From contig NZ_CP133269.1 in the NCBI RefSeq assembly GCF_030915525.1, positions 1,575,001 to 1,639,000 on the forward strand: DNA of 64,000 bases. The letters are read 5' to 3'. A model generated the notes under the pieces. It saw only the letters and a list, made by a program, of their open reading frames with translations, was not told the origin of the DNA and made no database searches. Below are positions 15,386-60,982 of the stretch, piece after piece. A program made the position numbers and the translations under genes. Numbering within the stretch: position 1 is the first letter of the stretch; each line of letters starts with the position of its first letter. This DNA comes from Neobacillus sp. PS2-9. GTDB lineage: Bacteria; Bacillota; Bacilli; Bacillales; Cytobacillaceae.

Positions 15386-15567
15386 GGCTATGTTAAAGAA
15401 CATTGTTGATTTTTATACCCTGTTGATTGGAGCGGAAGGAGCGAAGACTCCTGTGGGAGTATGGTTCAGGGGAGACCCCGCAGGCGCTAACGACGAGGAG
15501 GCTCGCCGAAACACCCACGAACCGCTCGCTCCTGGAGCGGAAATCAACAGAAAAATTTAACAAAGCC
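15386..15567 (+). mobile_element. MITE-like 180-bp repeat, copy 1
   Basis: 182-bp copy of an element found four times in this window. Ends: GGCTATGTTAAA at left and TTTAACAAAGCC at right (11 of 12 inverted). Flanks TTTGAAAT and TTAAAAAT match at 6 of 8 bases, a worn target duplication. Inside are CTGTTGATT/AATCAACAG and the stem GGAGCGA/TCGCTCC, where the other copies have GGCACGA/TCGTGCC. It lies between yqeM and comER and creates a spurious short ORF. Confidence 0.78.
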
Positions 15568-15607
15568 TTAAAAATAAAGAAGGAATTTGTCTAATGCTAT
15601 CGAATAA

Positions 15608-16429
15608 TTACTTAGAGAATTGCATTTCCACTTTATCAAGATCTTCTTTAAATTTTGAATGGGTCGCCTGGAACAAATGTTCAAACACGTTCCCCAGTTC
15701 ATTGTCTAACACCTTTATCCCTTCACCCGTTATTCCACCTTTTACACAAACTTTTTCTTGTAATGATGGTAGAGTGTAGTGACCTTGTTTTAACAACTCA
15801 CCAAGTCCCACAATCATCTCACTTGCAAAAATGGTTGCAGTGGCTTCGTCAATTTCTGTCTCCTTCACTGCTGCTTGTATGAATCGCTGTAGGAGATAGC
15901 TGAAGAAAGCCGGGCCGCAACTCACAATATCTGATGCCACCCTCGTAATGTTCTCGTCAATACTAACTGGTACCGAAATCTTCGTAATTAAAGTTCCAAT
16001 TTTTTCTCTCCAAAGGTCACTACAATTTTCTCCATAGGTAAGTAAGGACACGCCGGATAATGCCCGATTTGTAATACTTGGAATTACTCGGATTACTGAA
16101 CAAGATACCTTTTTTTCAATTTGGCTTGTACTGACAGGACTTGTTATGGATATAAGACATTTTTCATCATTTAAGTGAGGGTTTATATCATCCAGTAATT
16201 TATAAATGTCTAATGGTTTGACACAAATAAATAATAAATCGGATTGAGCCGCCACCTCTTCCGGAGTTGCCCCAACCCTAATTTCCCTATATTTATCTTT
16301 AAGCAGCATGGCTTTAGATTTCGTTCTATTTGTAATGATCATTGAAGAAGGGGATATGGCCTTACTATCAATCAAGGCCTCCACCAAAATTCTCCCCATA
16401 TTACCGGTACCGATGATACCTAGATTCAT
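15608..16429 (-). CDS. comER: ComER, pyrroline-5-carboxylate reductase-like protein
   Basis: 273-aa member of the P5C reductase (ProC) superfamily encoded opposite comEA, as in B. subtilis. N-terminal Rossmann loop GIIGTGNMG, then the GATPEEVAAQSDLLFICVKP segment typical of ProC proteins and a C-terminal dimerisation part. ComER is not needed for DNA uptake itself and its reaction in the cell is unclear; links to sporulation and biofilm timing have been reported for the family. Start at 16429 is set by GAAGGAGGG on the minus strand; in-frame codons back to 16453 lie before it. Confidence 0.9.
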   Translation of the reverse strand: MNLGIIGTGNMGRILVEALIDSKAISPSSMIITNRTKSKAMLLKDKYREIRVGATPEEVAAQSDLLFICVKPLDIYKLLDDINPHLNDEKCLISITSPVSTSQIEKKVSCSVIRVIPSITNRALSGVSLLTYGENCSDLWREKIGTLITKISVPVSIDENITRVASDIVSCGPAFFSYLLQRFIQAAVKETEIDEATATIFASEMIVGLGELLKQGHYTLPSLQEKVCVKGGITGEGIKVLDNELGNVFEHLFQATHSKFKEDLDKVEMQFSK

Positions 16430-16519
16430 TTTCCGACCCTCCTTCGCATGCAATATTCTTTTATAACCATATGAAAAGTAAATGTGAAATATACCTTCGA
16501 TTTGAAAGGATGGATCCTA

Positions 16520-17167
16520 ATGAAAGACTGGTTGTTGGAACACAAGTTTTACATGGTGGTTGCTATAATTATTGGTTTAAGTTGTTTTTATTATTTTTCC
16601 TTCATAGAAAATGCCCCTGTTGCAACTGAGACAATTTCCATGGAAAGCACGCTGAAAGAGGAGGGTCAGGAAAACACGAAAAATAATCAACCCGAACAAA
16701 AGGAAAAGACAGAGAAAATTATGGTTGATGTAAAGGGACAAATCAAGCAACCGGGCGTATATCAGGCAAATACAGGTGATCGAGTCATTGATGTCATTAG
16801 CCGCGCTGGTGGGTTAACGGTGCAAGCTGACCAAACCCAAGTTAATTTTGCTGCACATGTTGTTGATGAAATGGTTGTCTATGTACCGGCCAAGGGTGAG
16901 GAAACCGCTGCTGCTGTTGTTGGTTCCATAGATGGAAACTCCACCGTAATAGCGAGTACCAGTGAGGGTCAGGCTAAAATTAATATTAATAAAGCGGATG
17001 AAAACGAACTGCAAAACCTCCCTGGAATTGGTCCGTCTAAGGCAGCTGCCATACTGGAATATCGGAACACAAACGGACCATTTAAGGTGGTAGAAGACCT
17101 TAAAAATATTAGTGGGATTGGGGATAAAACTTATGAAAAATTAAAGGATTTAATTGTGGTTCACTGA
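16520..17167 (+). CDS. comEA: Competence DNA-receptor ComEA
   Basis: 215-aa membrane-anchored protein that binds double-stranded DNA at the cell surface during transformation. One membrane segment near residues 9-29, a charged linker rich in Glu and Lys, an SLBB domain (VDVKGQIKQPGVYQ, about 78-130), and a C-terminal helix-hairpin-helix pair (INKADENELQNLPGIGPSKA and ISGIGDKTYEKL) that contacts DNA. ATG at 16520 is preceded by GAAAGGATGG; the frame opens earlier at 16484 without a site. I see no convincing ComK box upstream. Confidence 0.95.
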   Translation: MKDWLLEHKFYMVVAIIIGLSCFYYFSFIENAPVATETISMESTLKEEGQENTKNNQPEQKEKTEKIMVDVKGQIKQPGVYQANTGDRVIDVISRAGGLTVQADQTQVNFAAHVVDEMVVYVPAKGEETAAAVVGSIDGNSTVIASTSEGQAKININKADENELQNLPGIGPSKAAAILEYRNTNGPFKVVEDLKNISGIGDKTYEKLKDLIVVH

Positions 17168-17240
17168 ATCATAGATTGACCTATAGTACAAGTACCCTTA
17201 CACTAAATGTAAACTTTTTAATTCTAGGGAGTGGGGAATC

Positions 17241-17702
17241 GTGAATCGACTATCTTGGGATCAATATTTTATGGCACAAAGCCACTTGCTGGCACTAAGA
17301 AGCACGTGCACTAGGCTTACAGTAGGTGCAACCATTGTTAGAGATAAGCGTATTATTGCGGGAGGCTACAACGGATCGATTGCAGGGGGCGACCATTGTA
17401 TTGATAAAGGATGCTATGTGATTGACCACCACTGTGTAAGAACGATTCATGCAGAAATGAATGCCTTGCTCCAATGTGCTAAATTTGGTGTACCTACTGC
17501 TGATGCTGAAATCTATGTGACTCATTTTCCTTGCCTCCAATGCTGTAAAGCCATTATCCAAGCGGGCATAAAGACAGTTTATTACGCGGAGGATTATAAA
17601 AATCATCCATATGCCATTGAATTATTTGAGCAAGCGGGTGTAAAAATTGAAAAGGTAGAACTGACTGAACAAGTCATCGACTTTAGAAAGATCACACAAT
17701 AG
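17241..17702 (+). CDS. comEB: Deoxycytidylate deaminase ComEB
   Basis: 153-aa zinc enzyme of the dCMP/CDA deaminase family. Zinc and catalytic motifs are HAEMNALL (HAE) and PCLQCCK (PCxxC). It converts dCMP to dUMP; the gene sits in the comE operon, although the protein is not essential for transformation in B. subtilis. GTG start at 17241 with GGGAGTGGGG upstream. Followed by a 76-base gap before comEC that contains a small GC-rich hairpin (GCCGG/CCGGC near 17714-17732). Confidence 0.94.
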   Translation: MNRLSWDQYFMAQSHLLALRSTCTRLTVGATIVRDKRIIAGGYNGSIAGGDHCIDKGCYVIDHHCVRTIHAEMNALLQCAKFGVPTADAEIYVTHFPCLQCCKAIIQAGIKTVYYAEDYKNHPYAIELFEQAGVKIEKVELTEQVIDFRKITQ

Positions 17703-17778
17703 CTTTTTCTTGGCGCCGGTCATATCCGGCGTCATCCCTTTCAAACTCCTTAAAAAACCTACAAATTGGAGAAGTAAA

Positions 17779-20106
17779 ATGAATGGAAAGTATATGTATA
17801 TTGCCCTTTCTGCTTTGTTGGGCGTACTATGCGCTCTTGTAACGTTTTTTCCTTTCTTTATTCTAATGATTATTTATATGTATTTACTGTATCAATACAA
17901 AAGATTTTCGAAGGAACAAATAGCCCTCCTCGTGGTTATTTTTACCATCTCTCTGTTAATAGGAATGAGGGGGGAAAGAATGAATCACTCTCTTATACCT
18001 GAATCTACCACAGCCTTTACTCTGGAATACATAGAAAATCCCAAAATTGATGGCGATTTATTACAGGTAGAGATAAAGGAAAAATTCCACAATGAGAATC
18101 TCCTCCTACGTTACAAATTAAAATCAGAAAATGAAAAAATAAACCTTCAGAATAAAATTTTTTTTAGTCGGGTTTGCAGGGTATCGGGTTCCTTGAAAAA
18201 ACCGGCGATGGCCAAAAATCCAAATGGATTTGATTATCGTAACTATCTCTCCAATAAGCGCATTCATTGGATACTTGAAACCAATGAAAATCCACTCCAA
18301 CATTGTACTTCCATTCCGTCTTCATTACTGGTTACCTTAAAACAATTTCGTTTTACGGGTACGCGTTATCTTATCGACCATTTCCCTATTGAAATTGCTT
18401 CACTGTCCGCAGCTTTAATTTTTGGCGATAGGAGTTTACTGAATCCGGCCTTGCTTGGTAATTATCAAAGAACTGGCATCGTTCATTTATTAGCTATTTC
18501 TGGACTTCATGTTTCCTTGTTAATTGGGGTTGTTTTTTATTTGGGGCTGCGGGTAGGAATCACAAGGCAGTGGATGACGAATGTTCTTTTGGTGGCTATT
18601 CCTGTCTATGTAATCCTTACAGGGAGCTCTCCATCCGTGATTAGAGCTGGATTAATGATATTCCTTGTCCTGCTAACGACAAAATGGAAAAATAGACTTA
18701 AGCTTTTACCAATTGACGCAATATGTTTGGCCTTTATTATCTTTTTGTTTATAGATCCACTGGCAATTTTTGATGTTGGTTTTCAACTTTCTTTTTCAGT
18801 AAGCACGGCCATCATTCTGTCAGCTGGATTAATCTTTTCTATTTATCAGCACAGTTTATTACGGATGTTAGTTACATCTGTTATTTCTCAATTAGCAGCC
18901 TTTCCATTTTTACTTTATCATTATTTTGAGCTTTCATTAGTCGGCATTATCGCCAACATGCTGTATATTCCTCTCTTTTCCTTTGTATATCTTCCAGGTG
19001 TTTACTTCCTCTTTGTCGTTCAACTGCTATTCAGTAATACTCCAATCATTTTTGTAAATAGTTTCTTGAAAATCATTTCCTTTTTTAATGAAGTCATCGA
19101 TTATGCGGCAAAAATCCCTTTTGGGAGCTTTATAGCTGGTAGGCCCAATCTTATACTTTTAATAGTGGAAATCATCATTATATTTGCGGTCTTTTGTAAT
19201 TGGGAAGAGATTACTTCATCCAAAGGGAAAAGACATCTTATTTTGTTGGGTATTCTGCTTTTCAGTCTTCAAATGGAGTTAAACAGATTTAATCCTTATG
19301 GAGAGGTGACTATGATTGACGTCGGGCAAGGGGACAGTATTCTAATTCAACTTCCTTTCCAAAAAGGAACCATTCTGATTGATACAGGAGGAACGATGCA
19401 ATACCATGTGGAAGAATGGAGGCAGCGAGCAAATCCTTTTGAAGTGGGGAAAGATGTGGTAGTACCTTTCTTGAAAGGTAAAGGTGTTACAAAAATTGAT
19501 AAACTGATTTTAACACATGGAGACATAGACCATATCGGAGGTTCCTTTTCTATTTTAGAAGAGCTTAAGGTCAAACAAATCTTAATACCCTCGGTTATTG
19601 CTCCGTCTGAAACAGAGCTTGATATCATTAAAATAGCTAAAAAGAAAAGGATACCTGTTATAAAAGTTGCGGCCGGGGATCATTGGAATATTGATGAATT
19701 TGAATTCTTTATCCTTTCTCCGGAAAGAAATTTTGCGGGTGAAAGAAACAGTGGGTCAATTGCCTTTGTTTCAAGGTTAGGGGGACGGAATTGGTTTTTC
19801 GGGGGAGACCTTGATCAGGAAGGAGAAGAGAAAATTATTAAGAAATATCCAAATCTAACAATTGATGTACTTAAGGCAGGACATCATGGAAGTAAGACAT
19901 CGAGTGCTGAATTATTTATTCATCAAGTTAAACCAAAGACAGTTTTAATTTCTGCCGGTGAAAAAAATCGTTTTGGTCATCCACATCAAGAAGTGCTTGA
20001 GCGGTTAAAAAAAGTCAATGCTACCATTTACCGAACTGATTTACAAGGAGCGATTACGTATCGTTTTTATAAACAGAAAGGAACCTTTTCAACCTTCTTA
20101 CCATAA
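17779..20106 (+). CDS. comEC: Competence DNA channel protein ComEC
   Basis: 775-aa polytopic membrane protein forming the channel for single-stranded DNA entry. Short N-terminal helices, an OB-like extracellular part, the competence domain (LLAISGLHVSLLIG near residue 240) with many membrane helices, and a C-terminal metallo-beta-lactamase-like domain (IDVGQGDSILIQ, THGDIDHIGG, KAGHHGSKTS) thought to degrade the non-transported strand. Start at ATG 17779 with TTGGAGAAG just upstream; the frame opening at 17710 has no site. Last comE gene; no strong plus-strand terminator is seen after it. Confidence 0.95.
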   Translation: MNGKYMYIALSALLGVLCALVTFFPFFILMIIYMYLLYQYKRFSKEQIALLVVIFTISLLIGMRGERMNHSLIPESTTAFTLEYIENPKIDGDLLQVEIKEKFHNENLLLRYKLKSENEKINLQNKIFFSRVCRVSGSLKKPAMAKNPNGFDYRNYLSNKRIHWILETNENPLQHCTSIPSSLLVTLKQFRFTGTRYLIDHFPIEIASLSAALIFGDRSLLNPALLGNYQRTGIVHLLAISGLHVSLLIGVVFYLGLRVGITRQWMTNVLLVAIPVYVILTGSSPSVIRAGLMIFLVLLTTKWKNRLKLLPIDAICLAFIIFLFIDPLAIFDVGFQLSFSVSTAIILSAGLIFSIYQHSLLRMLVTSVISQLAAFPFLLYHYFELSLVGIIANMLYIPLFSFVYLPGVYFLFVVQLLFSNTPIIFVNSFLKIISFFNEVIDYAAKIPFGSFIAGRPNLILLIVEIIIIFAVFCNWEEITSSKGKRHLILLGILLFSLQMELNRFNPYGEVTMIDVGQGDSILIQLPFQKGTILIDTGGTMQYHVEEWRQRANPFEVGKDVVVPFLKGKGVTKIDKLILTHGDIDHIGGSFSILEELKVKQILIPSVIAPSETELDIIKIAKKKRIPVIKVAAGDHWNIDEFEFFILSPERNFAGERNSGSIAFVSRLGGRNWFFGGDLDQEGEEKIIKKYPNLTIDVLKAGHHGSKTSSAELFIHQVKPKTVLISAGEKNRFGHPHQEVLERLKKVNATIYRTDLQGAITYRFYKQKGTFSTFLP

Positions 20107-20126
20107 GATAAAGCATTCAATAAGAA

Positions 20127-20156
20127 ATAAAAAAAGACTGCAAGGTAGCAGTCCTT
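20127..20156 (-). terminator. Terminator of yqzM
   Basis: Minus strand GGACTGC paired with GCAGTC(T) and followed by a run of seven Ts. Confidence 0.82.
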
Positions 20157-20179
20157 GATTACGGTATGTAAACCCTTCA

Positions 20180-20314
20180 TTATGAACCGATAAGCTTAAT
20201 AACAGTTGCGATAATGAACAATAAAGCAAAGAAGCCAAAAGAAACCCCAAATCCTACTCCAGAATCGATAGCGTCGTTACGTTTGCTTTGCACGTTTTTT
20301 TCAAATTGATTCAC
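20180..20314 (-). CDS. yqzM: YqzM family small membrane protein
   Basis: 44 residues beginning MNQFEKNVQSKRNDAIDSG and ending IKLIGS, with one membrane segment about residues 21-41. The N-terminal block is nearly identical to YqzM, which occupies the same place between comEC and holA in B. subtilis. Function unknown. GTG start at 20314 with GGAGGGG nine bases upstream. Missed by ordinary ORF cut-offs. Confidence 0.9.
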   Translation of the reverse strand: MNQFEKNVQSKRNDAIDSGVGFGVSFGFFALLFIIATVIKLIGS

Positions 20315-20395
20315 AATCTACCCCTCCTATTTTCAAAATATAGTATAAGCTATTTGGCTGAAAAAATCCAGCCTCCCTTTACCGTTTTCCTGTAA

Positions 20396-20410
20396 TGACA
20401 AGAGTTGTCA
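20396..20410. promoter_or_regulatory. Palindrome upstream of yqzM/holA
   Basis: TGACAA-GAG-TTGTCA, a perfect 6-bp dyad with a 3-base centre in the yqzM-holA divergent region; operator-like, owner unknown. Confidence 0.4.
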
Positions 20411-20452
20411 AAATACTATGATTCAGTTAAGGCTACACTATTATTACGTTAG

Positions 20453-20547
20453 GAACTCCGCCAGGCAATTACAGATCCTAGGGCTGAATATTGCAGGCGT
20501 TCATTATAGATCGGGAATTGGCACTTATTAGTTAATTGCTAATTCCC
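20453..20547 (+). other. Two consecutive hairpins before holA
   Basis: First stem: GAA, CGCC and GCAAT (left, from 20453) pair with ATTGC, GGCG and TTC (right, to 20502) with small bulges, about 12 pairs. Second stem: GGGAATT (20513-20519) with AATTCCC (20541-20547), extended by a GC/GC pair. They lie upstream of the predicted holA promoter, so they are not in its leader; they may be the remains of a small RNA gene or DNA-level structure. Confidence 0.4.
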
Positions 20548-20556
20548 TTTAAGTAC

Positions 20557-20585
20557 TTGTCAAATCGTCCAAGCTTCATTACGAT
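20557..20585 (+). promoter_or_regulatory. Sigma-A promoter of holA
   Basis: TTGTCA, 17-base spacer, TACGAT; predicted start about 28 bases before the ATG at 20620. Confidence 0.6.
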
Positions 20586-20619
20586 AAGATGTAAGTGAAA
20601 TGAAGGGGAGCGCTGGACA

Positions 20620-21636
20620 ATGGTATTGGATATTTGGAGGAGAATCAAAAAAAAAGAAATTGCTCCTATCTATTTATTATATGGAACAGAGGCATATTTA
20701 ATCAATGAAACGAAGCAACTACTTCTTAACCGTATATTAGACGAAGAAGAGAAGGACTTTAATTTTTCTGCATATGACTTAGAGGAGACTCCCATTGATG
20801 TGGCATTGGAGGATGCAGAAACGTTTCCTTTTCTAGGTGAAAAAAAAGTTGTTTTTTTACATAATCCCGTATTTTTAACTGCTGAGAAAACGAAGGAAAA
20901 GGTTGAACACGATTTAACAAAACTTGAAGCCTACTTGAAAGAACCAGCCCCGTATACGGTGATGGTTATTTCAGCGCCATATGAAAAATTAGATGAGCGA
21001 AAAAAAATCACGAAAGAACTGAAGAGAAACGCAGAACTAGTAGAAGCTAAAAAGTTAAATGAACATGAGTTGAAAAACTGGGTGAAGGATCGTGCGGCAG
21101 GAAATGGAATTGAAATTGAAGCGAATGCTGTTGATCAATTACTTGCCTTAGTTGGAACAAATATGTTTATGCTAACCACAGAAGTGGATAAGTTGGCTTT
21201 GTATGCAGCAGACCATAAAAGAATTGATGTGGATTTAGTTGAAAAATTAGTGGCCCGATCTCTTGAACAGAATATTTTTACCTTAATTGAGAAAGTGGTT
21301 CAACGAAAATTGGATGAGGCACTACGGATTTATTATGATTTGCTAAAGCAAAATGAGGAGCCAATTAAAATCCTTGCCTTACTAGCCGGGCAATTTCGCT
21401 TAATTTATCAAGTAAAGGAACTCTCTAGAAGAGGGTATGGTCAACAGCAAATTGCTGGTTACTTAAAAACCCACCCGTTTCGTGTCAAATTAGCAAGTGG
21501 GCAGGCAAATAAATTTACAGATGAAGAATTAGCTAAACTTATGGAATGGCTGGCTGAGGCTGACTATCAAATGAAAACAGGCGGTATGAACAAATCCTTG
21601 CTTATCGAGATGCTATTGTTTCGTTTAAAAAAGTAA
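20620..21636 (+). CDS. holA: DNA polymerase III delta subunit (clamp loader)
   Basis: 338-aa subunit of the clamp-loader complex that opens the beta sliding clamp. Begins IWRRIKKKEIAPIYLLYGTEAYL, the family's N-terminal signature; three-domain AAA+ relative lacking a Walker A motif, as expected for delta. C-terminal collar region ends LLIEMLLFRLKK. ATG at 20620 with AGGGGAG 10 bases upstream. Convergent with rpsT, with a shared bidirectional terminator. Confidence 0.93.
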   Translation: MVLDIWRRIKKKEIAPIYLLYGTEAYLINETKQLLLNRILDEEEKDFNFSAYDLEETPIDVALEDAETFPFLGEKKVVFLHNPVFLTAEKTKEKVEHDLTKLEAYLKEPAPYTVMVISAPYEKLDERKKITKELKRNAELVEAKKLNEHELKNWVKDRAAGNGIEIEANAVDQLLALVGTNMFMLTTEVDKLALYAADHKRIDVDLVEKLVARSLEQNIFTLIEKVVQRKLDEALRIYYDLLKQNEEPIKILALLAGQFRLIYQVKELSRRGYGQQQIAGYLKTHPFRVKLASGQANKFTDEELAKLMEWLAEADYQMKTGGMNKSLLIEMLLFRLKK

Positions 21637-21644
21637 AGAAACAT

Positions 21645-21677
21645 AAAAAAACGATTCCTGAGCGGAATCGTTTTTTT
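21645..21677. terminator. Bidirectional terminator holA / rpsT
   Basis: AAAACGATTCC paired with GGAATCGTTTT, A-run on the left and seven Ts on the right. Confidence 0.93.
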
Positions 21678-21690
21678 ATTGCGCGCTATA

Positions 21691-21951: not shown

Positions 21952-22029
21952 TACATTCACCTCCTACAAAGAATCGAGACTATATGAACTCGACTTTACA
22001 TTCATCAATAATAATTCAGAACAAGAAGT

Positions 22030-22058: not shown

Positions 22059-22090
22059 TACACAAATGAAAAGTGATAATTATTTAACTT

Positions 22091-25018: not shown

Positions 25019-25190
25019 GGCAATGAATTGATTTTTCAAACCTGTTGATTGGAGTGGAAGGCACGAAGACTCCTGTGGGAGTATGGTTCAGGGGAGACCC
25101 CGCAGGCGCAAGCGCCGAGGAGGCTCGCCGAAACACCCACGGAAATCGAAGTGCCTGGAACGGAAATCAACAGACAATTTTAATAGAGCT
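25019..25190 (+). mobile_element. MITE-like 180-bp repeat, copy 2 (worn)
   Basis: 172-bp copy with a decayed left end (GGCAATGAATT) and right end (TTAATAGAGCT), but an intact core: CTGTTGATT ... GGCAC ... GTGCC ... AATCAACAG, and the hairpins CTCC/GGAG, GGGG/CCCC and GGCGC/GCGCC. Flanks TAATTTTG and TAAATTTA agree at 6 of 8 bases. Oldest-looking of the four copies; sits between the yqxA terminator and lepA. Confidence 0.72.
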
Positions 25191-40884: not shown

Positions 40885-40897
40885 CCCACTTTAATTA

Positions 40898-41080
40898 GGC
40901 TGTGTTAAAGAGAAGTGTTGATTTTCACACCCTGTTGATTGGAGAGGAAGGCACGAAGACTCCTGTGGGAGTATGGTTCAGGGGAGACCCCGCAGGCGCA
41001 TGCGCCGAGGAGGCTCGCCGAAACACCCACGGAAAGCGCAGTGCCTGGAGCGGAAATCAACAGGCTAGTTTAACAGAGCC
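40898..41080 (+). mobile_element. MITE-like 180-bp repeat, copy 3 (intact)
   Basis: 183-bp copy with ends GGCTGTGTTAAA and TTTAACAGAGCC (11 of 12 inverted) and perfect 8-bp flanking direct repeats TTTAATTA at 40890-40897 and 41081-41088. The core has CTGTTGATT/AATCAACAG, GGCAC/GTGCC, GGGG-AGA-CCCC and GGCGCATGCGCC. It splits floA from yqfB, which are adjacent in B. subtilis. ORFs reading GVWFRGDPAG through it are artefacts. Confidence 0.85.
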
Positions 41081-41106
41081 TTTAATTAAAAAAAGGAGGG
41101 TAGGAT

Positions 41107-41565
41107 TTGGAAACGATACTATTCTTAATCATTGCCGGCGTGATCTCAACAATCTTTGGTAAAACAAAAAGCACCCAAGGAAAGTCACGAAATAAGCCTT
41201 TTTCCGTAGGTAACATGAAAGATATTCGAACGCTTTTTGATGAATATACCAATGAAAAACCAAGAGAAACCTTCTCCGCTGAAACGAAGACTCATACAGA
41301 AGTGCCGCAAAACGTAATAAAAGATCTTGAAAATGAATATGTTCAAGTGAGGCAAGAGTCAGAAGCTAGTCGTACTAGAATGGCAGTAACTCGGCAACAG
41401 GCTGAACGAGTGATAGCCCCTACTACGAAAGTTAACCATGAGGAAACGACTATACCTGTTGCGTTAGAAAACCCAGATGCTAATACGATTGTTAATGGAA
41501 TCATTTGGTCGGAAATTCTTGGCGAACCGCGCGCAAAAAGACCTTATTTTTCAAAAAGAAGATAA
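41107..41565 (+). CDS. yqfB: YqfB-like protein of unknown function
   Basis: 152-aa protein with a short hydrophobic N terminus (ETILFLIIAGVIST, possibly membrane-anchored) and a long polar, Thr/Glu-rich body. Placed after nfeD-floA as yqfB is in B. subtilis; the similarity itself was not checked. TTG start at 41107 with AAAAGGAGGGTAG upstream. The repeat between floA and this gene leaves it 222 bases from floA; whether it is still read from the sigma-W promoter is open. Its transcript ends at the hairpin before yqfC. Confidence 0.6.
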   Translation: METILFLIIAGVISTIFGKTKSTQGKSRNKPFSVGNMKDIRTLFDEYTNEKPRETFSAETKTHTEVPQNVIKDLENEYVQVRQESEASRTRMAVTRQQAERVIAPTTKVNHEETTIPVALENPDANTIVNGIIWSEILGEPRAKRPYFSKRR

Positions 41566-49945: not shown

Positions 49946-49984
49946 TTTGGATAATAAAATATTTGCATTGACGGAAAAGAGTAA

Positions 49985-50180
49985 TTAGATTTCTCTCTCT
50001 ATAAAAGCGAACCTAGGATGGTGAGAGCTAGGGTATAGGGCACTAATGAAGGCGTTCCTGAGCAATTTTGTGTTGATTAGGCACATTTAAGGAGGCTGCT
50101 ATTACAAGCAGCAAATAGGGTGGAACCGCGGGTAACTCTCGTCCCTATGCTAATAAGCATAGGGGTGGGAGTTTTTTTAT
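49985..50180 (+). promoter_or_regulatory. Glycine T-box riboswitch
   Basis: Untranslated leader that senses uncharged tRNA-Gly. The T-box core AGGGTGGAACCGCG is at 50117-50130, followed by the terminator stem (CCCTATGC/GCATAGGG and flanks, 50134-50179) with seven Ts; the antiterminator uses the T-box. Stem I spans about 49990-50070, and GGC at 50051-50053 after the conserved GAA is the likely glycine specifier. Confidence 0.93.
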
Positions 50181-50250: not shown

Positions 50251-51636
50251 ATGAGTAATGTAACGATGGAGCAAATTGTTGCACATGCAAAGCACAGAGG
50301 ATTTATTTTTCCGGGGTCAGAGATTTATGGTGGCCTTGCAAACACATGGGATTACGGTCCATTAGGTGTTGAGTTCAAAAACAATATCAAACAGGCATGG
50401 TGGAAGAAATTTGTTCAGGAGTCCCCTTACAATGTGGGCTTGGACGCGAGTATTCTGATGAATCCAAGAACATGGGAAGCGTCTGGACACATTGGAAACT
50501 TTAATGATCCAATGATTGATTGTAAAAACTGTAAAGCGCGTCACCGCGCAGATAAATTAATCGAAAATGCTCTCGATGCAAAAGGTATTGAAATGGTTGT
50601 TGATGGCTTACCGTTTGAGAAGATGGAAGAGCTTGTCAAAGAACATAATATAGCATGTCCGGATTGTGGAAGTCATGATTTCACAGGAATCCGACAGTTT
50701 AATCTTATGTTTAAAACCTTCCAAGGTGTTACTGAGTCAAGCACCAATGAGATTTTCCTTCGACCTGAAACAGCTCAAGGAATTTTTGTGAACTTTAAAA
50801 ATGTACAACGTACAATGAGAAAGAAATTACCATTTGGTATCGCTCAAATTGGAAAAAGTTTCCGTAACGAAATTACACCAGGTAATTTTACATTCCGTAC
50901 ACGTGAGTTCGAACAAATGGAGCTTGAATTTTTCTGTAAACCAGGAGAAGAGCTCACATGGTTTGATTATTGGAAGAATTTCGCTGAAGGCTGGTTAGGT
51001 TCTTTAGGTCTTACAAAAGAAAATTTAAGACTGCGTGACCATTCTGAAGATGAACTTTCTCACTATAGTAATGCAACGACCGATTTTGAATATAAGTTTC
51101 CATTTGGCTGGGGTGAGCTTTGGGGTGTTGCTTCCAGAACAGATTATGATTTGAAGCAACATATGGAATTTTCGGGTGAGGATTTCCATTACCTTGATCC
51201 GGAAACGAATGAAAAGTATGTTCCTTACTGTATCGAACCATCACTCGGTGCGGACCGCGTTACATTGGCATTTTTAATTGATGCATATGAAGAAGAAGAG
51301 CTTGAAGATGGTACTTCCAGAACAGTTATGCATTTTCATCCTGCACTAGCACCGTTTAAGGCAGCCATTCTTCCGTTATCCAAGAAGTTATCTGATGAGG
51401 CAAAGGAAGTTTTTGCTACATTATCTAAATACTTTACTGTTGATTATGACGAGGCTGGTTCTATCGGTAAACGCTACCGCCGCCATGATGAAATCGGAAC
51501 ACCGTTCTGTATTACCTATGATTTTGACTCAAAAGAAGATCAAATGGTAACAGTAAGAGACCGTGATACCATGGTGCAAACAAGAATCCCAATCGCGGAT
51601 CTTGTCAGCTTCCTTCAGGAGAAAATGGTATTTTAA
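50251..51636 (+). CDS. glyQS: Glycine--tRNA ligase, single-chain (alpha2) type
   Basis: 461-aa class II aminoacyl-tRNA synthetase of the homodimeric type shared with archaea and eukaryotes, not the GlyQ/GlyS pair of B. subtilis. Class II motifs: motif 1 around [16 protein letters not shown], motif 2 [25 protein letters not shown], motif 3 [13 protein letters not shown]-terminal anticodon-binding domain from about 350. A CKNC/CPDC zinc-like pair sits in the insertion. ATG at 50251, AAAAGGAG upstream. Expression governed by the T-box leader. Confidence 0.96.
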
Positions 51637-53755: not shown

Positions 53756-53759
53756 ATTT

Positions 53760-53815: not shown

Positions 53816-55627
53816 ATGGCAGACCGTATTGCCGAAGAAAAGATTGATCAAGTTCGTCAAGCTGTTGATATTGTCGAAATAATCAGCGATTATGTTCAAC
53901 TGAAAAAGCAGGGGCGAAATTACTTCGGACTATGTCCTTTCCATGGTGAAAGCACCCCTTCATTTTCAGTATCGCCTGATAAACAAATTTACCATTGTTT
54001 TGGATGTGGAGCAGGTGGAAATGTTTTTTCTTTCTTAATGGAACTTGAAGGTATGTCGTTCCAGGAAGCAGCCATTAAATTAGCTGCGAGAGTTAATATT
54101 GATCTCGATATTAAAAGGTCTACGGTTTCTGGAGAGAAGAAGGTTTCCAAAGAATTTCAATCTATGCTCGATGCCCATGAGTTATTAAGAAAATTTTATC
54201 ATCACTTACTAGTAAATACAAAGGAAGGTCAGCACGCATTAGAGTATTTATTAGATAGAGGTTTTTCAAGGGAATCGATTGATAAGTTTCAAATTGGGTA
54301 TTCATTAAATTCATGGGATTTTGTTTATAAGTTCCTATCTAAAAGGGATTTTTCACCTGAATGGATGGAAAAAGCCGGACTAATTATCCAGCGGGAAAGA
54401 GACGGGACATATTTTGATCGATTTAGAGATCGAATCATGTTTCCAATTTCCGACCGAAATGGTAATACGATTGCATTTTCAGGGAGGTCACTTGGGGCCG
54501 ATGAGCCCAAATATTTAAATAGTCCCGAAACCGCAATCTTTAATAAAAGTAAAATTCTATACAATTATCATTTAGCTAAATCAAGTATAAAAAAGTTGCA
54601 ACATGCTGTTTTGTTTGAGGGATTTGCCGATTGTATTGCAGCAGATCGATCTGGTGTAGAGAATGGTATTGCCACAATGGGAACTTCTTTGACTGATGAA
54701 CATATAGCCCTATTACGTCAAAGCGTTCAATCCATAACAATTTGCTATGATTCTGATAAGCCTGGGATTGAAGCGGCCTATCGAGCAGGTAGTCACTTAA
54801 ATGATGCGGGTTTCCAAATCAAGGTGGCTATGATGCCAGATGGAATGGATCCTGATGAATATATAAAAAAAAATGGCTCTGAAAAATTTCGCAATGAAGT
54901 AATTGGTGCAAGCTCAACCTGGATGGGTTTTAAATTTCTTTACTTTAGAAGAGGAAAAAATCTTCAAATTGAAGGAGATCGGCTTGCGTATATCGAACAA
55001 ATAATTAAAGAAATCAGCAAATTAAATAAGGCTGTTGAAAGAGATCATTACTTGCGGCAGCTCGCTGGTGAATTTTCACTTTCGTTGGATGCTTTAAAAC
55101 AGCAGCAAAAACAAATCTTCTTCGAAGAAAAAAGAAAATCCAACGGAAAGACTGAAACAAGTAATAAACCACCATTGAAAATTGTTAAGCAGGTGAACGA
55201 GTTAAAGCCCGCACATTATACTGCTGAGAGGCGTTTAATTGCACATATGCTAAAAAATCGTGATGTTGCTTACAAGGTTCAGGATTTATTACAGCAAAAC
55301 ACGTTTAATATGGATGAACATCAGGCAATAATAACATATCTGTTAGGATTTTATGAAGATCACTTAGAACCTGATTCTAGTGCGTTTTTAACCTATATTC
55401 AAGATGAAAATCTTAGAAGAATAGTTGCAAATATTGAAATGATGTCCATTAATGATGAATTAAGTGACCAAGAATTAACTGATTATATCAAACAGGTGTT
55501 GAATTATCAAAAAATGCTAAAGATAAAAGAAAAAGAAGTGGAACAAAAAGAAGCAGAGCGACATGGTGAATTTAGTAGAGCTGCTGCAATTGGTATTGAA
55601 ATTATTCAATTGCGTAAATCGTTATAG
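53816..55627 (+). CDS. dnaG: DNA primase
   Basis: 603-aa primase laying RNA primers at the fork. N-terminal zinc domain [15 protein letters not shown] ... CFGCG (about 40-64), TOPRIM polymerase core ([20 protein letters not shown]), and a C-terminal helicase-binding part. ATG at 53816; GGAGATG lies seven bases upstream. Followed after 41 bases by sigA, the classic macromolecular-synthesis operon without yqxD. Confidence 0.97.
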
Positions 55628-55668
55628 ATTCCATTTTAGTGTCTTTGATTCTGGAAGGAGGAGGACAT

Positions 55669-56796
55669 ATGGCTGCTGAAAAATCAGCCCGTTCAAAAGA
55701 GGCCGAGAATGAACTGACCTTTGAACAAGTAAAGGATCAGTTAACTGAATTAGGAAAAAAAGTTGGTGTCCTTGCCTATGATGACATTGCCGAAAAGATG
55801 GCTAATTTTGATTTAGAATCTGATCAAATGGATGAGTTTTATGAATTCCTGGGAGATCAAGGTATTGAATTAGTAGGCGATAGTGAGGAAGCTCCAAATA
55901 GTAAACAATTATCAAAAGGGGACGACGAAGAATTTGATTTAAATGATCTTAGCGTTCCTCCAGGTGTTAAGATTAATGACCCAGTTCGTATGTATTTAAA
56001 AGAGATTGGTCGCGTTGACTTACTTTCTGGTGAAGAAGAGATTAAACTCGCCAACCGTATTGAAGAAGGTGACGAGGAAGCGAAGCGCCGTTTGGCTGAA
56101 GCAAACCTACGTCTAGTCGTAAGTATTGCAAAGCGCTATGTAGGTCGCGGTATGCTATTTCTAGACCTGATTCAAGAAGGAAATATGGGTCTAATTAAAG
56201 CAGTTGAAAAATTCGATTATCGTAAAGGCTTTAAGTTTAGTACCTATGCAACCTGGTGGATTCGCCAAGCTATCACAAGGGCAATTGCGGACCAAGCCCG
56301 AACCATTCGTATCCCTGTTCATATGGTTGAAACAATTAACAAACTTATCCGTGTTCAACGTCAATTACTACAGGATCTTGGACGTGAACCAACACCAGAA
56401 GAAATTGGAGAAGATATGGATTTAACCCCGGATAAAGTAAGGGAAATTCTAAAGATTGCTCAAGAGCCTGTTTCATTGGAAACACCAATTGGTGAAGAAG
56501 ATGATTCTCATCTTGGTGATTTCATAGAAGACCAAGATGCAACGTCTCCTTCTGAACATGCTGCGTATGAATTATTAAAAGAGCAATTAGAAGACGTTCT
56601 CGATACTTTGACAGACAGGGAAGAAAACGTCCTTCGCCTGCGTTTTGGATTGGATGATGGCCGGACTCGTACACTAGAAGAAGTAGGGAAAGTCTTTGGA
56701 GTAACCCGCGAGCGAATTCGTCAAATTGAAGCGAAAGCATTGCGGAAATTACGTCATCCAAGCCGGAGCAAACGGTTGAAAGATTTCTTAGAATAA
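55669..56796 (+). CDS. sigA: Housekeeping sigma factor SigA (RpoD)
   Basis: 375-aa primary sigma-70 factor. Acidic N-terminal region 1.1, region 1.2 ([18 protein letters not shown]), region 2 with [29 protein letters not shown] for -10 recognition and melting, region 3, and region 4 ([30 protein letters not shown]) for the -35. ATG at 55669 with GGAGGAGG upstream; the frame opens at 55639 without a site. Terminator follows. Confidence 0.98.
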
Positions 56797-56811
56797 ATTT
56801 ATTCAATTAAT

Positions 56812-56843
56812 GGTTTACTCTTTAAGGGAGTAAACTTTTTTTT
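56812..56843 (+). terminator. Terminator of dnaG-sigA
   Basis: GTTTACTC paired with GAGTAAAC and eight Ts. Confidence 0.93.
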
Positions 56844-57096
56844 GTCTTTTTAAAAAGTTTACATTGAAAGCACTTACTGTATTTGAGTTTATTTTACTGA
56901 ATTGTCTCTCATTTTGCAAATAGGCACATTGATTTATTCATTTGTTTTAATGAATTTTATTTTTTTGGAAAAGGAATAAACTTGTTCTTGTTTCTTATTC
57001 TCTGTGTTAATAGTGTCAATTCTTTTCTTGCAACTTTGTTGTATTACTATTTTTATTATTTTTAAATAATTAATTATTTTATAAAATTTTTAAATG
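56844..57096. other. AT-rich gene-free stretch between sigA and the acyl-CoA dehydrogenase gene
   Basis: No reading frame seen. It contains TTGAAAGCACTTACT (near 56864), one base off a cre-like core, and an ATTCATT-N6-AATGAAT dyad at 56936-56955 of opposite polarity to a FadR box. Promoter elements follow. Confidence 0.5.
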
Positions 57097-57126
57097 TTGA
57101 GAAATTTCGGTTGTTTCTTTTATAAT
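57097..57126 (+). promoter_or_regulatory. Sigma-A promoter of the acyl-CoA dehydrogenase gene
   Basis: TTGAGA, 18-base spacer, TATAAT; about 38 bases from the -10 to the coding start. Confidence 0.7.
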
Positions 57127-57132
57127 AAATAA

Positions 57133-57146
57133 AGAAAGCGCATACA
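57133..57146. promoter_or_regulatory. Possible cre (CcpA) site
   Basis: AGAAAGCGCATACA, 12 of 14 to the TGWnAnCGnTnWCA pattern, placed at the predicted transcript start where CcpA would repress. Confidence 0.45.
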
Positions 57147-57169
57147 AAGTTGTTTCAAGGGGGATAAAA

Positions 57170-58309
57170 ATGAATTTTGACTTAACAGCTGAACAAGATA
57201 TGATTAAAAGAACTATTCGCCAATTTGCAGATGAAGAGGTAGCACCTGGTGCTATTGAAAGAGATAAAACTAAACAATTTCCAGTAGAAATTTTTAAAAA
57301 GCTTGCTGAAATGGGGATTATGGGACTTCCATTCCCTGAAGAATACGGCGGTGCTGGAGCAGATACTGTCAGCTTTGCCATTGTAACTGAAGAATTAAGT
57401 AGAACTTGTGCGTCGACAGGGATTACCTATTCTGCTCATATTTCATTAGGTGGAGCTCCCCTTCATTTGTTTGGGACTGAAGAACAAAAGCAAAAATATT
57501 TAACTCCTATTTGTACAGGTGAATCATTTGGTGCATTTGGCTTAACGGAACCCAATGCGGGTTCAGATGCGGGCGGTACAAGAACTTCCGCTAGAGAAGC
57601 GAATGGTGAATTCATAATAAATGGGAATAAGTGTTTCATTACTAACGCAAGCTTCGCAAAGCATTTAGCCTTAACAGCTATAACTGGTGAAAATAACGGG
57701 AAGAAAGAAATCAGTGCGATTATCGTTCCTACTAATTCTGACGGCTTTACGATTATTGATAATTACGAAAAGATGGGTTTGAATGCTTCGAATACCACGG
57801 AGCTTGTATTAGAGGATGTAAGAGTTTCTTCCGAAAATCTTTTAGGAAAGCGAGGAGAGGGTTTTAGACAGTTTTTGATTACGCTTGATGGGGGCCGAAT
57901 TGGGATTGGAGCTATGGCAGTGGGGATTGCTCAGGGCGCGTATGAGAAGGCACTTGCCTATGCCAAGGAACGGAAGCAATTTGGAAAATCCATTTCCTCT
58001 TTTCAGGCCATTCAGTTTAAATTAGCCGATATGGCAATGAAAATTGAATTAGCCAGAAATATGGTGTATAAAGCTGCTTGGTTAAAAGATCAAGGCAGAG
58101 CGTTCTCAAAAGAAGCTGCAATGTGTAAACTATATGCATCTGAAATCTGTATGGAAGTAACGAGTCAGGCTGTTCAGATACATGGTGGATACGGATATAT
58201 GAAGGAGTATCATGTGGAAAGAATGATGCGTGATGCAAAACTGCTTGAAATTGGTGAAGGGACATCTGAAGTTCAACGAATGGTTATTTCGCGATTAATT
58301 GGTTGCTAA
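57170..58309 (+). CDS. Acyl-CoA dehydrogenase
   Basis: 379-aa FAD-dependent dehydrogenase catalysing the first step of beta-oxidation or branched-chain acyl-CoA breakdown. FAD/substrate motifs GAFGLTEPNAGSDAGG and ITNASFA, the second signature QFGKSISSFQAIQFKLADM, and the catalytic glutamate in LEIGEGTSEVQRM near the end. Resembles short-chain/butyryl-CoA dehydrogenases; chain-length preference cannot be read off. ATG at 57170 with AAGGGGGAT upstream. Stands alone between sigA and cccA; a cre-like site at its promoter suggests glucose repression. Confidence 0.93.
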   Translation: MNFDLTAEQDMIKRTIRQFADEEVAPGAIERDKTKQFPVEIFKKLAEMGIMGLPFPEEYGGAGADTVSFAIVTEELSRTCASTGITYSAHISLGGAPLHLFGTEEQKQKYLTPICTGESFGAFGLTEPNAGSDAGGTRTSAREANGEFIINGNKCFITNASFAKHLALTAITGENNGKKEISAIIVPTNSDGFTIIDNYEKMGLNASNTTELVLEDVRVSSENLLGKRGEGFRQFLITLDGGRIGIGAMAVGIAQGAYEKALAYAKERKQFGKSISSFQAIQFKLADMAMKIELARNMVYKAAWLKDQGRAFSKEAAMCKLYASEICMEVTSQAVQIHGGYGYMKEYHVERMMRDAKLLEIGEGTSEVQRMVISRLIGC

Positions 58310-58330
58310 AAGTAAATATGGGAAAGCTAA

Positions 58331-58372
58331 GAGAGGTAAATTAATTATTTTCGTTAATTTACCTCTTTTTTC
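58331..58372 (+). terminator. Terminator of the acyl-CoA dehydrogenase gene
   Basis: GAGGTAAATTAA paired with TTAATTTACCTC, then six Ts. Confidence 0.93.
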
Positions 58373-58502
58373 TTTTTTACAAAGATTATAGTGATAAAAT
58401 AAGTTTAGGGCTTTTCCTTCTGTTCATTTTCAAGTAAAATAGTAATTGTTTGTAGACTATTTATTTATTAACAGATGTTCGTACATAAGGGAGGTTAATT
58501 GC

Positions 58503-58871
58503 ATGAAACGTAATCCAGTAATTCCTTTTATTCTTATCATGGTTTTTGGACTCGTACTTGTATTTGTCATGTCTTTCAAAGGCCTTGGTGATATGAAAGA
58601 AGTAGCTAGTGAGAAGGGTGAAGGAAAAGGCAGCGAGAAGACGGAAGTAGCTGCATCTAAACCAGAAGACATCTATAAGCAAACATGTGTTGCTTGTCAC
58701 GGTGATCAGTACCAAGGGGTAGTTGGTCCTACGCTAAAAGGTGTTGGTAGCAAGTATTCTAAGGAACAATTAGAAGAGATCGTAACAAAAGGTAGAGGTA
58801 ACATGCCAGCTGGTCTAGTTTCACCAGATAAAGCTGGAGCAATGGCAGATTGGTTAAAAACAATCAAATAA
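58503..58871 (+). CDS. cccA: Membrane-anchored cytochrome c-550
   Basis: 122-aa c-type cytochrome: N-terminal membrane anchor (about residues 5-24), a Lys/Glu-rich linker, and a heme domain with CVACH (heme attachment) and the axial methionine in NMPAGL. Carries electrons on the outer face of the membrane; normal neighbour of sigA in B. subtilis. ATG at 58503 with GGGAGGTTAAT upstream; in-frame codons back to 58446 have no site. Confidence 0.94.
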   Translation: MKRNPVIPFILIMVFGLVLVFVMSFKGLGDMKEVASEKGEGKGSEKTEVAASKPEDIYKQTCVACHGDQYQGVVGPTLKGVGSKYSKEQLEEIVTKGRGNMPAGLVSPDKAGAMADWLKTIK

Positions 58872-58885
58872 TTTAACGTTTTTAA

Positions 58886-58919
58886 AGAAGTCCTTTGCAT
58901 AAGTGAAGGACTTTTTTTT
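58886..58919 (+). terminator. Terminator of cccA
   Basis: AAGTCCTT paired with AAGGACTT and seven Ts. Confidence 0.9.
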
Positions 58920-58972
58920 ATAATGAGAAAAGCGATTTAAAAAAATATTATAATTTGTAAAGTGGTGATTTT

Positions 58973-59692
58973 TTGAATACTGATAAATTATCAATCCGAT
59001 TAGCTACAGTGGCTAAATATGTACCTGCTGGATCTAGGATTGCAGATATTGGCTCTGATCATGCATATTTACCCTGTTACTTAGCCAAAAGTACCGGAAT
59101 TTCTTTTGCTATTGCAGGAGAGGTTGCTGCAGGACCATACCAATCGGCCGAAAGAAATGTTCAATCGGAAGGTTTATCTTCTATTATTTCTGTACGAATG
59201 GGTGATGGTTTAGAAGTCATTCAGCCTGGAGAAGTGGATTGTATTACTATTGCAGGAATGGGTGGCTCTTTAATCACAAGTATATTAGAAAATGGGAAAG
59301 AAAAGCTCGAATCTGTCAAAAGGTTAGTATTGCAACCAAATATTAGTGCAATTTCTATTCGAAAATGGTTCTTAGAAAATAATTGGGAACTTGTTGCGGA
59401 AGAAATTATGGAAGAGGACGAGAAAATTTACGAAGTCCTTGTTGCTGAAAAAGGAGATACCTCTAAACCTTATCAAAATCAGTTAGAAAGTGGTCTTTTA
59501 TTAGGGCCATTTCTAAGTCAAAATCAAGAACCAGCCTTTCAAAAAAAATGGACCATGGAAATAAAAAATTGGAAGCGAATAGTAGATCAGTTAGAGAGTG
59601 CAGGCGAAACGGCTGAAACAGTAGAAAAAAAGCAAGAGTTATTGAACAAGATAAGGCTAGTTGAGGAGGTATTGAAACTTGAAGAATCCTAA
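58973..59692 (+). CDS. trmK: tRNA m1A22 methyltransferase TrmK
   Basis: 239-aa SAM methyltransferase modifying A22 in bacterial tRNAs. Begins LSIRLATVAKYVPAGSRIADIGSDHAYLP, the family signature with SAM motif I; the ITIAGMGGSLI loop is the NPPY-like position. C-terminal coiled coil. TTG start at 58973, AAAGTGGTGA upstream. Overlaps yqfO by 14 bases, as in B. subtilis (yqfN-yqfO). Confidence 0.95.
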   Translation: MNTDKLSIRLATVAKYVPAGSRIADIGSDHAYLPCYLAKSTGISFAIAGEVAAGPYQSAERNVQSEGLSSIISVRMGDGLEVIQPGEVDCITIAGMGGSLITSILENGKEKLESVKRLVLQPNISAISIRKWFLENNWELVAEEIMEEDEKIYEVLVAEKGDTSKPYQNQLESGLLLGPFLSQNQEPAFQKKWTMEIKNWKRIVDQLESAGETAETVEKKQELLNKIRLVEEVLKLEES

Positions 59693-60794
59693 CGGGCATG
59701 AGATTATTCAGCTTTTTGAACAGTTTTCACCGAAATCCTTAGCCATGGAAGGCGATAAAATTGGCCTGCAAGTTGGAAGGTTAAATAAAAAGGTTGATCG
59801 GGTGATGATTGCTCTGGATGTGCTGGAAGATGTAATAGATGAAGCTATAGAAAAAAATGTACAACTGATCATTGCACACCATCCAATTATTTTTCGCCCA
59901 CTAAAAAATGTACTAACGGATACAACACAAGGTAGAATGGTTGAAAAGCTATTAAAACACGACATTGCAGTCTATGCGGCACACACCAATCTTGACGTTG
60001 CAAAGGGAGGAGTAAACGACCTCTTGGCAGCTGCATTAGAATTACAGGAACCAGAAGTACTAGTCCCTACCTTTGACACGAAGTTAAAAAAATTAGTGGT
60101 TTTTGTACCTGCAAGCCATGCAGAAGAAATTAGAAACGTACTTGGCAAAGCCGGAGCAGGTTTTATAGGGAATTACAGTCATTGTACCTTCTCTACAAAT
60201 GGCACCGGGCGGTTTCTGCCTGGTGAGAATACAAATCCCTTTGTGGGACAGCCTGGTCAGTTAGAAGTGGTAGATGAGATTCGGATTGAGACCATAGTTC
60301 CAGAACCGCTTCTAAAAAAAGCTATAACTGCGATGGTTAAAGCACATCCTTATGAAGAAGTAGCTTACGATATATATCCTACTGAAAATAAAGGGGAAGT
60401 GCTTGGTCTAGGTAGGATAGGAAAAGTGAGTGAAATGACTCTTGGAGAGTTTGCAGAAAAAGTAAAGACCGCACTTGATGTGGAACGAGTAAGAGTAGTA
60501 GGCGATCTATCTTCTAAGGTTAGAAAGGTTGCTGTTTTGGGTGGCGATGGAAATAAATATTTCATGAATGCCAAATACAAAGGAGTCGATGTATATGTAA
60601 CAGGAGATATTTATTATCACACTGCACATGATGCCATGATGCAAGGCCTTAATATGATTGATCCTGGGCATAATGTTGAAAAGGTCATGAAAAAAGGATT
60701 GACAGCAGCCTTGCAAAAGATGTGTAGAGAAGAAGGATATGAAGTAGAGATATTCCCTTCTGAAGTAAATACGGATCCTTTCCAATTCATTTAA
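59679..60794 (+). CDS. yqfO: Nif3-like dinuclear metal-centre protein YqfO
   Basis: 371-aa hexameric protein of the NIF3/DUF34 family. Metal ligands in IIAHHPIIF and AAHTNLDVAKGG (N-terminal half) and in the C-terminal half; the middle (about 130-240, including VKAHPYEEVAYDIYP) is the PII/CutA-like insert that marks the long form. Biochemical role unsettled; a GTP cyclohydrolase I type 2 label is common but unproven. TTG at 59679 with GAGGAGGT eight bases upstream. Repeat copy 4 begins six bases after the stop. Confidence 0.92.
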   Translation: MKNPNGHEIIQLFEQFSPKSLAMEGDKIGLQVGRLNKKVDRVMIALDVLEDVIDEAIEKNVQLIIAHHPIIFRPLKNVLTDTTQGRMVEKLLKHDIAVYAAHTNLDVAKGGVNDLLAAALELQEPEVLVPTFDTKLKKLVVFVPASHAEEIRNVLGKAGAGFIGNYSHCTFSTNGTGRFLPGENTNPFVGQPGQLEVVDEIRIETIVPEPLLKKAITAMVKAHPYEEVAYDIYPTENKGEVLGLGRIGKVSEMTLGEFAEKVKTALDVERVRVVGDLSSKVRKVAVLGGDGNKYFMNAKYKGVDVYVTGDIYYHTAHDAMMQGLNMIDPGHNVEKVMKKGLTAALQKMCREEGYEVEIFPSEVNTDPFQFI

Positions 60795-60800
60795 AAAGAA

Positions 60801-60982
60801 GGCTGTGTTAAAGAACAGTGTTGATTTATACACCCTGTTGATTGGAGCGGAAGGCACGAAGACTCCTGTGGGAGTATGGTTCAGGGGAGACCCCGCAGGC
60901 GCAAGCGCCGAGGAGGCTCGCCGAAACACCCACGAACCGCTCGTGCCTGGAGCGGAAATCAACAGGCAAGTTAAACAGAGAC
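60801..60982 (+). mobile_element. MITE-like 180-bp repeat, copy 4
   Basis: 182-bp copy with left end GGCTGTGTTAAA, a slightly worn right end (GTTAAACAGAGAC) and perfect 8-bp flanking direct repeats AAAAAGAA at 60793-60800 and 60983-60990. Internal stem GGCACGA/TCGTGCC is complete. It has landed between yqfO and its terminator. Frames through it are artefacts shared with the other copies. Confidence 0.85.

Follow-up and report, generated by a model that had tools for sequence, protein, structure and literature searches.

An IS1595-type miniature element of Neobacillus sp. PS2-9 and its conserved folded core

A stretch of 64,000 nucleotides from Neobacillus sp. PS2-9 (contig NZ_CP133269.1, positions 1,575,001 to 1,639,000; the whole stretch is called the window here) holds four dispersed copies of a short repeat, which an earlier note had described as a miniature inverted-repeat transposable element (MITE) of IS6 origin. 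Our analysis shows that it is probably a mobile element in two parts, with ends of the IS1595 type and a separate folded passenger that is likely kept by selection on the transcribed strand. To judge from the loci compared, the passenger comprises the inner ~131 nt and occurs on the same plan under at least three kinds of transposon ends. This conserved folded core, which the earlier note did not notice, is the more unusual part of the element, as one covarying fold is common to IS1182 elements and to two types of IS1595 ends across the order Bacillales.

The usual view of bacterial MITEs is that they are empty shells. The interior of the present MITE is better conserved than its ends, covaries like a functional fold, travels under different ends and is rare in a sample taken outside the order. 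Should the fold act at the level of transcripts, transposons would have spread a layer of 3'-end elements over the whole genome; should it act in DNA, this would point to a helper site common to two unrelated families of transposases.

Transposition of the element and the origin of its ends

The earlier note had proposed searching the complete genome for the repeat, comparing occupied with empty sites in relatives and looking for an IS6/IS240 element with matching ends. A 36-nt pattern taken from the core and allowed up to three mismatches matched the genome (5.19 Mb, one contig) at 173 places, 88 on the plus strand and 85 on the minus strand, and the reversed pattern used as a control gave no match. 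From this family, 94 core-containing copies were extracted, chosen through the core pattern (from the first 100 of the 173 places) or by BLAST rank, and conserved termini were located on both sides of 88 of them. The length of the element was 180-185 bp in 82 of these 88 copies. Their flanking octamers matched perfectly in 43 copies, at seven or more positions in 60 and at six or more in 72, whereas 2000 random re-pairings of the flanks gave a mean of 0.7 perfect matches (maximum 5) and a mean of 2.5 matches of at least 7/8 (maximum 9). A chance origin of the octamer pattern is excluded genome-wide. Since exact repeats of other lengths were few (3 bp in 12 copies, 4-7 and 9-13 bp in 0-5 copies each), the length of the duplication is 8 bp. 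The target octamers of the 88 copies consist of 91% A+T.

To assess empty sites, 35 copies were compared with 400-kb stretches of two relatives from the genus, G027 and the more distant G021. The element was absent from G027 at all 17 testable sites, including all four window sites, with flank pieces that were 92-100% identical. At eight of the sites the extrapolated junction overlapped by precisely 8 bp, which is what one target octamer should give; the site at 1748986, one of the eight, does not contain the octamer itself. The locus of the third window copy is a clear empty site in G027 with one TTTAATTA.

In G021, 15 sites were testable, of which ten were empty and five occupied. At two of the occupied sites, 1458059 and 1590458 (the first window copy), the G021 element lies in the same short spacer in the opposite orientation, and G027 is empty at both. 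Because of this opposite orientation, the copies at the two sites are probably separate insertions, which suggests that one short A/T-rich target was hit more than once. The second window copy, which is the same insertion as its G021 counterpart, and the copy at 1785212 share changes in their ends with G021, while G027 lacks both with imprecise junctions; these two copies look like older insertions. At the site of the fourth window copy, G021 carries an element at the same place and in the same orientation, possibly the same insertion, and G027 is empty. Over the 400-kb stretches, 25 profile matches were found in G021 and two in G027.

The element is thus short, lacks a transposase gene, has terminal inverted repeats (TIRs) and is flanked by target-site duplications (TSDs) of fixed length, with empty sites in relatives, as is characteristic of a MITE. 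The earlier description of it as a non-autonomous element that has transposed is supported by the TSD statistics and by the empty sites.

The MITE ends occupy the outer ~27 bp on each side and read GGCTGTGTTAAA-N6-TGTTGATTT and GGCTCTGTTAAA-N6-TGTTGATTT. Transposases of the IS1595 family (PF12762) were detected at 25 loci in 16 of 40 genomes of the genus, and the IS1595 elements of the genus have the end layout GGCTSTGTTAAA-N6-TGTTGAT and A/T-rich 8-bp duplications, as in the MITE. With end sequences printed for 15 of the 25 loci, nine loci showed MITE-type ends on both sides, for example GGCTCTGTTAAA-N6-TGTTGATATTT (L062, L068, L072 and L080 among them). Three of the nine carry the variant GGCTTTGTTAAA and L070 carries AGCTATGTTAAA, while the right end of L067 is weak; the 8-bp duplications are perfect in eight and match at seven of eight positions in L061. 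NCBIfam places the transposases of L061, L068 and L072 in the IS1595 family, together with that of L063, which has ends of a second type (type B, see below). According to PMC8101967, 8-bp duplications are usual in the IS1595 family, and PMC12561309 describes for ISApl4 A/T-rich 8-bp repeats, mostly intergenic positions and ends starting with GGGGCTG. The elements of the genus, within a family that includes the IS1016 group and ISApl4, share their TIR with the MITE, which differs in having no transposase gene, and the folded core was absent from all 25 IS1595 loci examined.

The earlier note had assigned the element to an IS6-like transposase. IS6 elements make 8-bp TSDs and have ends starting with GG, two features that the MITE shares. 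However, none of 13 candidates scored in the PS2-9 genome matched PF13610 (IS6/IS240), and the MITE ends agree with IS1595 ends at the conserved positions and in their internal spacing. Across the genus, PF13610 matched at E<=0.001 in 14 of 40 genomes, five of them above the family cut-off; ends in common with an IS6/IS240 element were not found, the PF13610 loci being scanned for the type B pattern only and not for ends like those of the MITE (type A). An IS6 origin is therefore rejected as most improbable. As far as the compared ends can tell, those of the MITE are of IS1595 type rather than IS6 type, and the window element is a new member of the IS1595-type MITEs.

An IS1595-family DDE transposase supplied in trans would insert the element by way of its outer ~27-bp ends (GGCTSTGTTAAA-N6-TGTTGATTT) into intergenic octamers rich in A/T, in many cases shortly downstream of genes, and would so give rise to the 8-bp duplications. 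The ends and the duplications are directly visible, and from them we infer the action of the IS1595 enzyme. Solo IS1595-type ends were also seen in the PS2-9 genome at L342 4474(-) and L343 563(+); they have no core, and no transposase was recognised near them in the open reading frame (ORF) lists read by eye. Five viral contigs hold such an end, one end apiece.

The folded core and its carriage by other transposons

The core of ~131 nt between the ends is built of an outer stem (CTGTTGATT/AATCAACAG), a pair of symmetrical GGA/GGA internal loops with a 2-bp helix between them, and further helices. To evaluate this fold, 46 diverse core copies were aligned, and a structure of 39 pairs was drawn from the same sequences, a circumstance that biases the percentage of paired cells in its favour. 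In this alignment 91.2% of the cells were paired, and 26 of the 39 pairs had changed on both sides, amounting to 121 such cells. Shuffled alignments gave means of 83.2% paired, 12.9 pairs and 30.3 cells, and none of 500 shuffles reached the observed value in any of five measures. When the structure was slid along the alignment, 37-49% of the cells were paired. RNAalifold, run unaided, predicted 29 pairs, 19 of them with two-sided changes. The core does not appear to be a known RNA family: no match above the gathering cut-off was obtained with Rfam release 15, either in the window, where only a T-box was matched, or in the region of the fourth copy and five loci of relatives.

The conservation of the core was also analyzed in copies picked by their ends. 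From the first 100 listed exact matches to a 12-nt end, loci already fetched through the core were excluded and 40 were examined, a choice that works against core conservation. The MITE was present at 38 of the 40 loci, with 33 complete copies and five short forms. Singleton substitutions per site, in the core relative to subterminal and right-end sites, stood at a ratio of 0.42 in the 33 complete copies of the PS2-9 genome (p 0.0003) and 0.26 in 14 complete copies of G021 (p 6e-9), with region borders shifted by one base in this analysis.

A covariance model of the core was used to determine its spread, scoring at most 16 places per genome and hence yielding presence counts rather than copy numbers. 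Within a sample of 199 genomes from the order the core was present in 152, representing 78 of the 97 genera, and in a phylum-wide sample of 199 genomes it was present in two, namely PS2-9 itself and G404, which belongs to the same class. The core matches of G404, a genome from outside the order, number at least 16 (L375-L403, odd numbers) and have different flanks, several of them GGCGTTCTCCACATCTAAA-like; its cores show a covarying outer stem, and most have GAGT/ACTC. The exact core pattern occurred in three stretches of named genomes, two of them from Neobacillus. Carriage by phages was considered and rejected, as phage records gave no blastn match and one core pattern had no exact match in viral contigs.

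The same core lies between transposon ends of other types. Type B ends (GGCTSTTTTC...TTGTTG) were found on both sides of it at 12 of 17 loci examined in G111 and G103, where eight pairs of flanking octamers matched at 8/8, two at 7/8 and one each at 6/8 and 3/8. These ends also flank IS1595-family transposase loci on both sides, for example L063, L075, L077 and L078. A further type, D (CAGTGTGTAGACAAAG), was located on both sides of the core at eight of 12 loci in G045 and G160. At four of these (L409, L410, L412 and L413) the element lies flush with exact direct repeats of 25-30 bp that resemble terminator hairpins; a fifth locus has a 20-bp direct repeat, and exact repeats in the other three reach 10-13 bp at most. 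Type D ends resemble those of IS1182, one such end, CATTGTGTAGACAAAGC, being present at L446 in G045. The IS1182-type loci L444 and L447 of G182, which have related ends, likewise lie between two whole copies of one hairpin, and NCBIfam classes the transposases of L444, L445 and L446 as IS1182.

At all nine PF13751 (IS1182) loci the core lies a short way upstream of the transposase match, on the other strand; these loci come from three of eight genomes searched, which were chosen for holding the core, and five of them from one genome (G211), a selection that tells against the reading preferred here. In the five G211 copies the element ends were not found, and the core is at a constant distance in each. 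Two Peribacillus plasmid relatives also have the core upstream; an IS1182 transposase is annotated in one of them, and the other lacks a gene annotation at that place. No core was upstream of the transposase at the 25 PF12762 loci or at the 29 PF13610 loci, and several other genera showed no recognisable ends around it. The window copies are not themselves IS1182 elements, with which they share only the core, as they have other ends and 8-bp duplications. At L445, L448 and L451 of G211, two cores flank the IS1182 transposase gene, both pointing outward, the second of them possibly inside the element.

The type D arrangement has a published counterpart. IS1272, of the IS1182 family, uses terminator hairpins as targets, as stated in PMC5678879 and PMC4923244, and the IS1272 model of Wan et al. 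includes an alternative pathway that duplicates the whole stem-loop (PMC5678879). IS1272 deletes its target hairpin, whereas several IS1182-type elements here sit between two whole hairpin copies. By analogy, the hairpin-flanked IS1182-type elements and MITEs would be the outcome of that alternative pathway (PMC5678879).

Among published repeats, as far as the available texts describe them, the nearest analogues of the element are the bcr repeats of B. cereus, just as the nearest to the type D hairpin duplication is the alternative pathway of IS1272. The repeats bcr1-bcr3 of the Bacillus cereus group are short, MITE-like and often found in untranslated regions, and transcripts containing bcr3 have longer half-lives, a result called inconclusive by its authors (PMC3446304); bcr mobility has been linked to a TTTAT motif (PMC6542083). 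Their likeness to the present element is that of short MITE-like repeats, and they are set apart from the core by description only. Bhal-1 and Bhal-2 of Bacillus halodurans, listed at 74 and 76 bp, are repeated intergenic stem-loops like the core (PMC2267715); they were compared by description only and may be identical to it. Unlike the mobile element described here, they are presented in a main text in which 'transpos' does not appear (PMC2267715). No description of the folded module was found in the literature covered, which mostly excludes subscription papers, and matches to six core fragments led to five papers on other subjects, judging by their titles.

Orientation of the copies and possible roles of the core

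The earlier note had reported a single orientation of the copies. This holds within the window and fails genome-wide, where both strands are used about equally and orientation tracks the neighbouring genes. Genes next to the copies were called by an ORF heuristic, which gave a gene on both sides for 107 of 128 PS2-9 copies. Of these, 56 lie in sense and 17 in antisense orientation relative to both neighbours, 22 lie between convergent genes and 12 between divergent ones (56:17, p 5e-6). The ratio of sense to antisense was 11:0 in G021 (p 0.001) and 26:7 in other loci (p 0.0013). In PS2-9 the copies lie at a median of about 30 bp past the stop codon of the upstream gene. Replication does not explain the bias, because between convergent or divergent genes 14 copies run in the same direction as the leading strand, as inferred from the GC skew of the fetched flanks, and 17 in the opposite direction. 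Next to co-directional genes on the leading strand, 48 copies run with and 12 against the genes; for genes on the lagging strand these numbers are 4 and 3.

Three features speak for a role in the transcript, namely the sense bias, the placement a short distance past stop codons and the conserved fold. Within the overall explanation, we consider an RNA-level role of the core, as read from these sequence features, quite possible, if short of probable. Selection on the transcribed strand would maintain the folded module, which is conserved across the order and taken along by different ends as well as just upstream of the IS1182 transposase gene. At the 3' end of a message the fold might protect or delimit the transcript; insertions there would then be tolerated or useful, and different transposons would gain by carrying the fold. 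Its carriage by several kinds of mobile elements suggests a useful function for the folded part. Only tentatively would we extend this to an ancient mobile functional RNA of the Bacillales that acts in message 3' ends, is selected at many of the ~200 PS2-9 sites and rides with IS1182 and at least two IS1595 end types, making their insertions tolerable or useful.

Several observations weigh against selection on the transcribed strand and against parts of the mechanism. G-U cells numbered 38 and A-C cells 44 in the core alignment, omitting one pair that is T-G in 44 of the 46 sequences, and this use of wobble pairs gives no support to an RNA on this strand. Either strand folds well (z -3.9 and -4.3). 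Later samples of orientation show the same direction, weaker and not individually significant: 14:5 among 29 loci of the order, best-scoring copies outside PS2-9 (p 0.06), 5:3 among 15 G404 loci and 11:6 among 40 further loci, 27 of which have genes on both sides (p 0.33). The bias is already seen where the TSDs are perfect (18:8, compared with 22:6 in the other copies); it is thus present early and may arise at insertion. The hairpin is missing from five of the 38 end-picked MITEs, namely the short forms L304, L305, L314, L315 and L329 of ~80-90 bp. PF12762 found no intact IS1595 helper in the PS2-9 genome, its sole match being a relic that is interrupted by an in-frame stop and has one type B-like end. 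Orthologous copies of PS2-9 and G021 (25042-25173, 60835-60965 and L167) differ through a joint exchange of both arms of one helix, which fits gene conversion between copies, a process that could lower core diversity without selection.

This exchange of helix arms, the large number of copies and the existence of short forms without the hairpin would all be expected if the element were an ordinary IS1595 MITE whose interior is inherited baggage, kept uniform by conversion between copies and by a few active masters. However, conversion within a genome leaves unexplained the invariant unpaired motifs and the two-sided changes across many genera, and the baggage explanation accounts neither for the presence of this core in IS1182 elements and within other types of ends nor for the orientation bias. 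We regard it as improbable. Selection is the likelier reading of the low core diversity, and because helix arms have been exchanged between orthologous copies, gene conversion appears to act alongside it. Three of the five short forms keep one GGAGCGGAA and nothing else, which is consistent with deletion between the two copies of this 9-mer that border the core.

Since G-U is not commoner than A-C and both strands fold about equally well, the core may act at the DNA level. It could be a cruciform-forming or protein-binding site that aids the transposition or replication of IS1182- and IS1595-type elements, as its position near the end of IS1182 elements would also allow. Against this stand the absence of the core from all 25 IS1595 transposase loci, the orientation of the core, which follows gene direction, and the coreless short forms L304 and L314, which have perfect TSDs, though their cores may have been lost after insertion. 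A DNA-level role is hence unlikely in our view, if somewhat less so than mere baggage.

The four window copies and their neighbours

Sequence inspection and a repeat search of the window bore out the four copies of the earlier note, with their inverted terminal repeats and their intergenic placement relative to the named neighbour genes; a fifth copy was found neither by the repeat search nor by the core pattern with up to three mismatches (100 of 173 places listed). All four lie on the plus strand. Copy 1 (15386..15567, 182 bp; folded core at 15420..15550, plus strand) lies between convergent genes for a methyltransferase and a P5C-reductase-type protein. Its left octamer TTTGAAAT (15378..15385) and right octamer TTAAAAAT (15568-15575) match at six of eight positions, as had been noted. 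The same figure reported for copy 2 (25019..25190) holds at the boundaries used in the earlier note and drops to 3/8 in a boundary-free end search. The left end of this copy is decayed, its folded core (25042..25173, plus strand) is retained despite this, and its neighbours are a DUF3679 gene and a lepA-type gene.

The perfect 8-bp repeats of the other two copies were confirmed. Copy 3 (40898..41080, 183 bp; folded core at 40932..41063, plus strand), between floA and a downstream ORF without a Pfam match, is flanked by TTTAATTA at 40890..40897 and 41081..41088 (8/8). Copy 4 (60801..60982, 182 bp), between convergent NIF3-family and lytB/ispH-type genes, is flanked by AAAAAGAA at 60793..60800 and 60983..60990 (8/8), and in its folded core (60835..60965, plus strand) the outer stem and the two GGA/GGA internal loops are accompanied by several inner helices. 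Mechanically called ORFs overlap copy 3 (40902-41162, plus strand) and copy 4 (60507-60962, minus strand) and are not evidence of genes. Elsewhere in the window, a T-box leader at 49959-50149 precedes an ORF at 50251.

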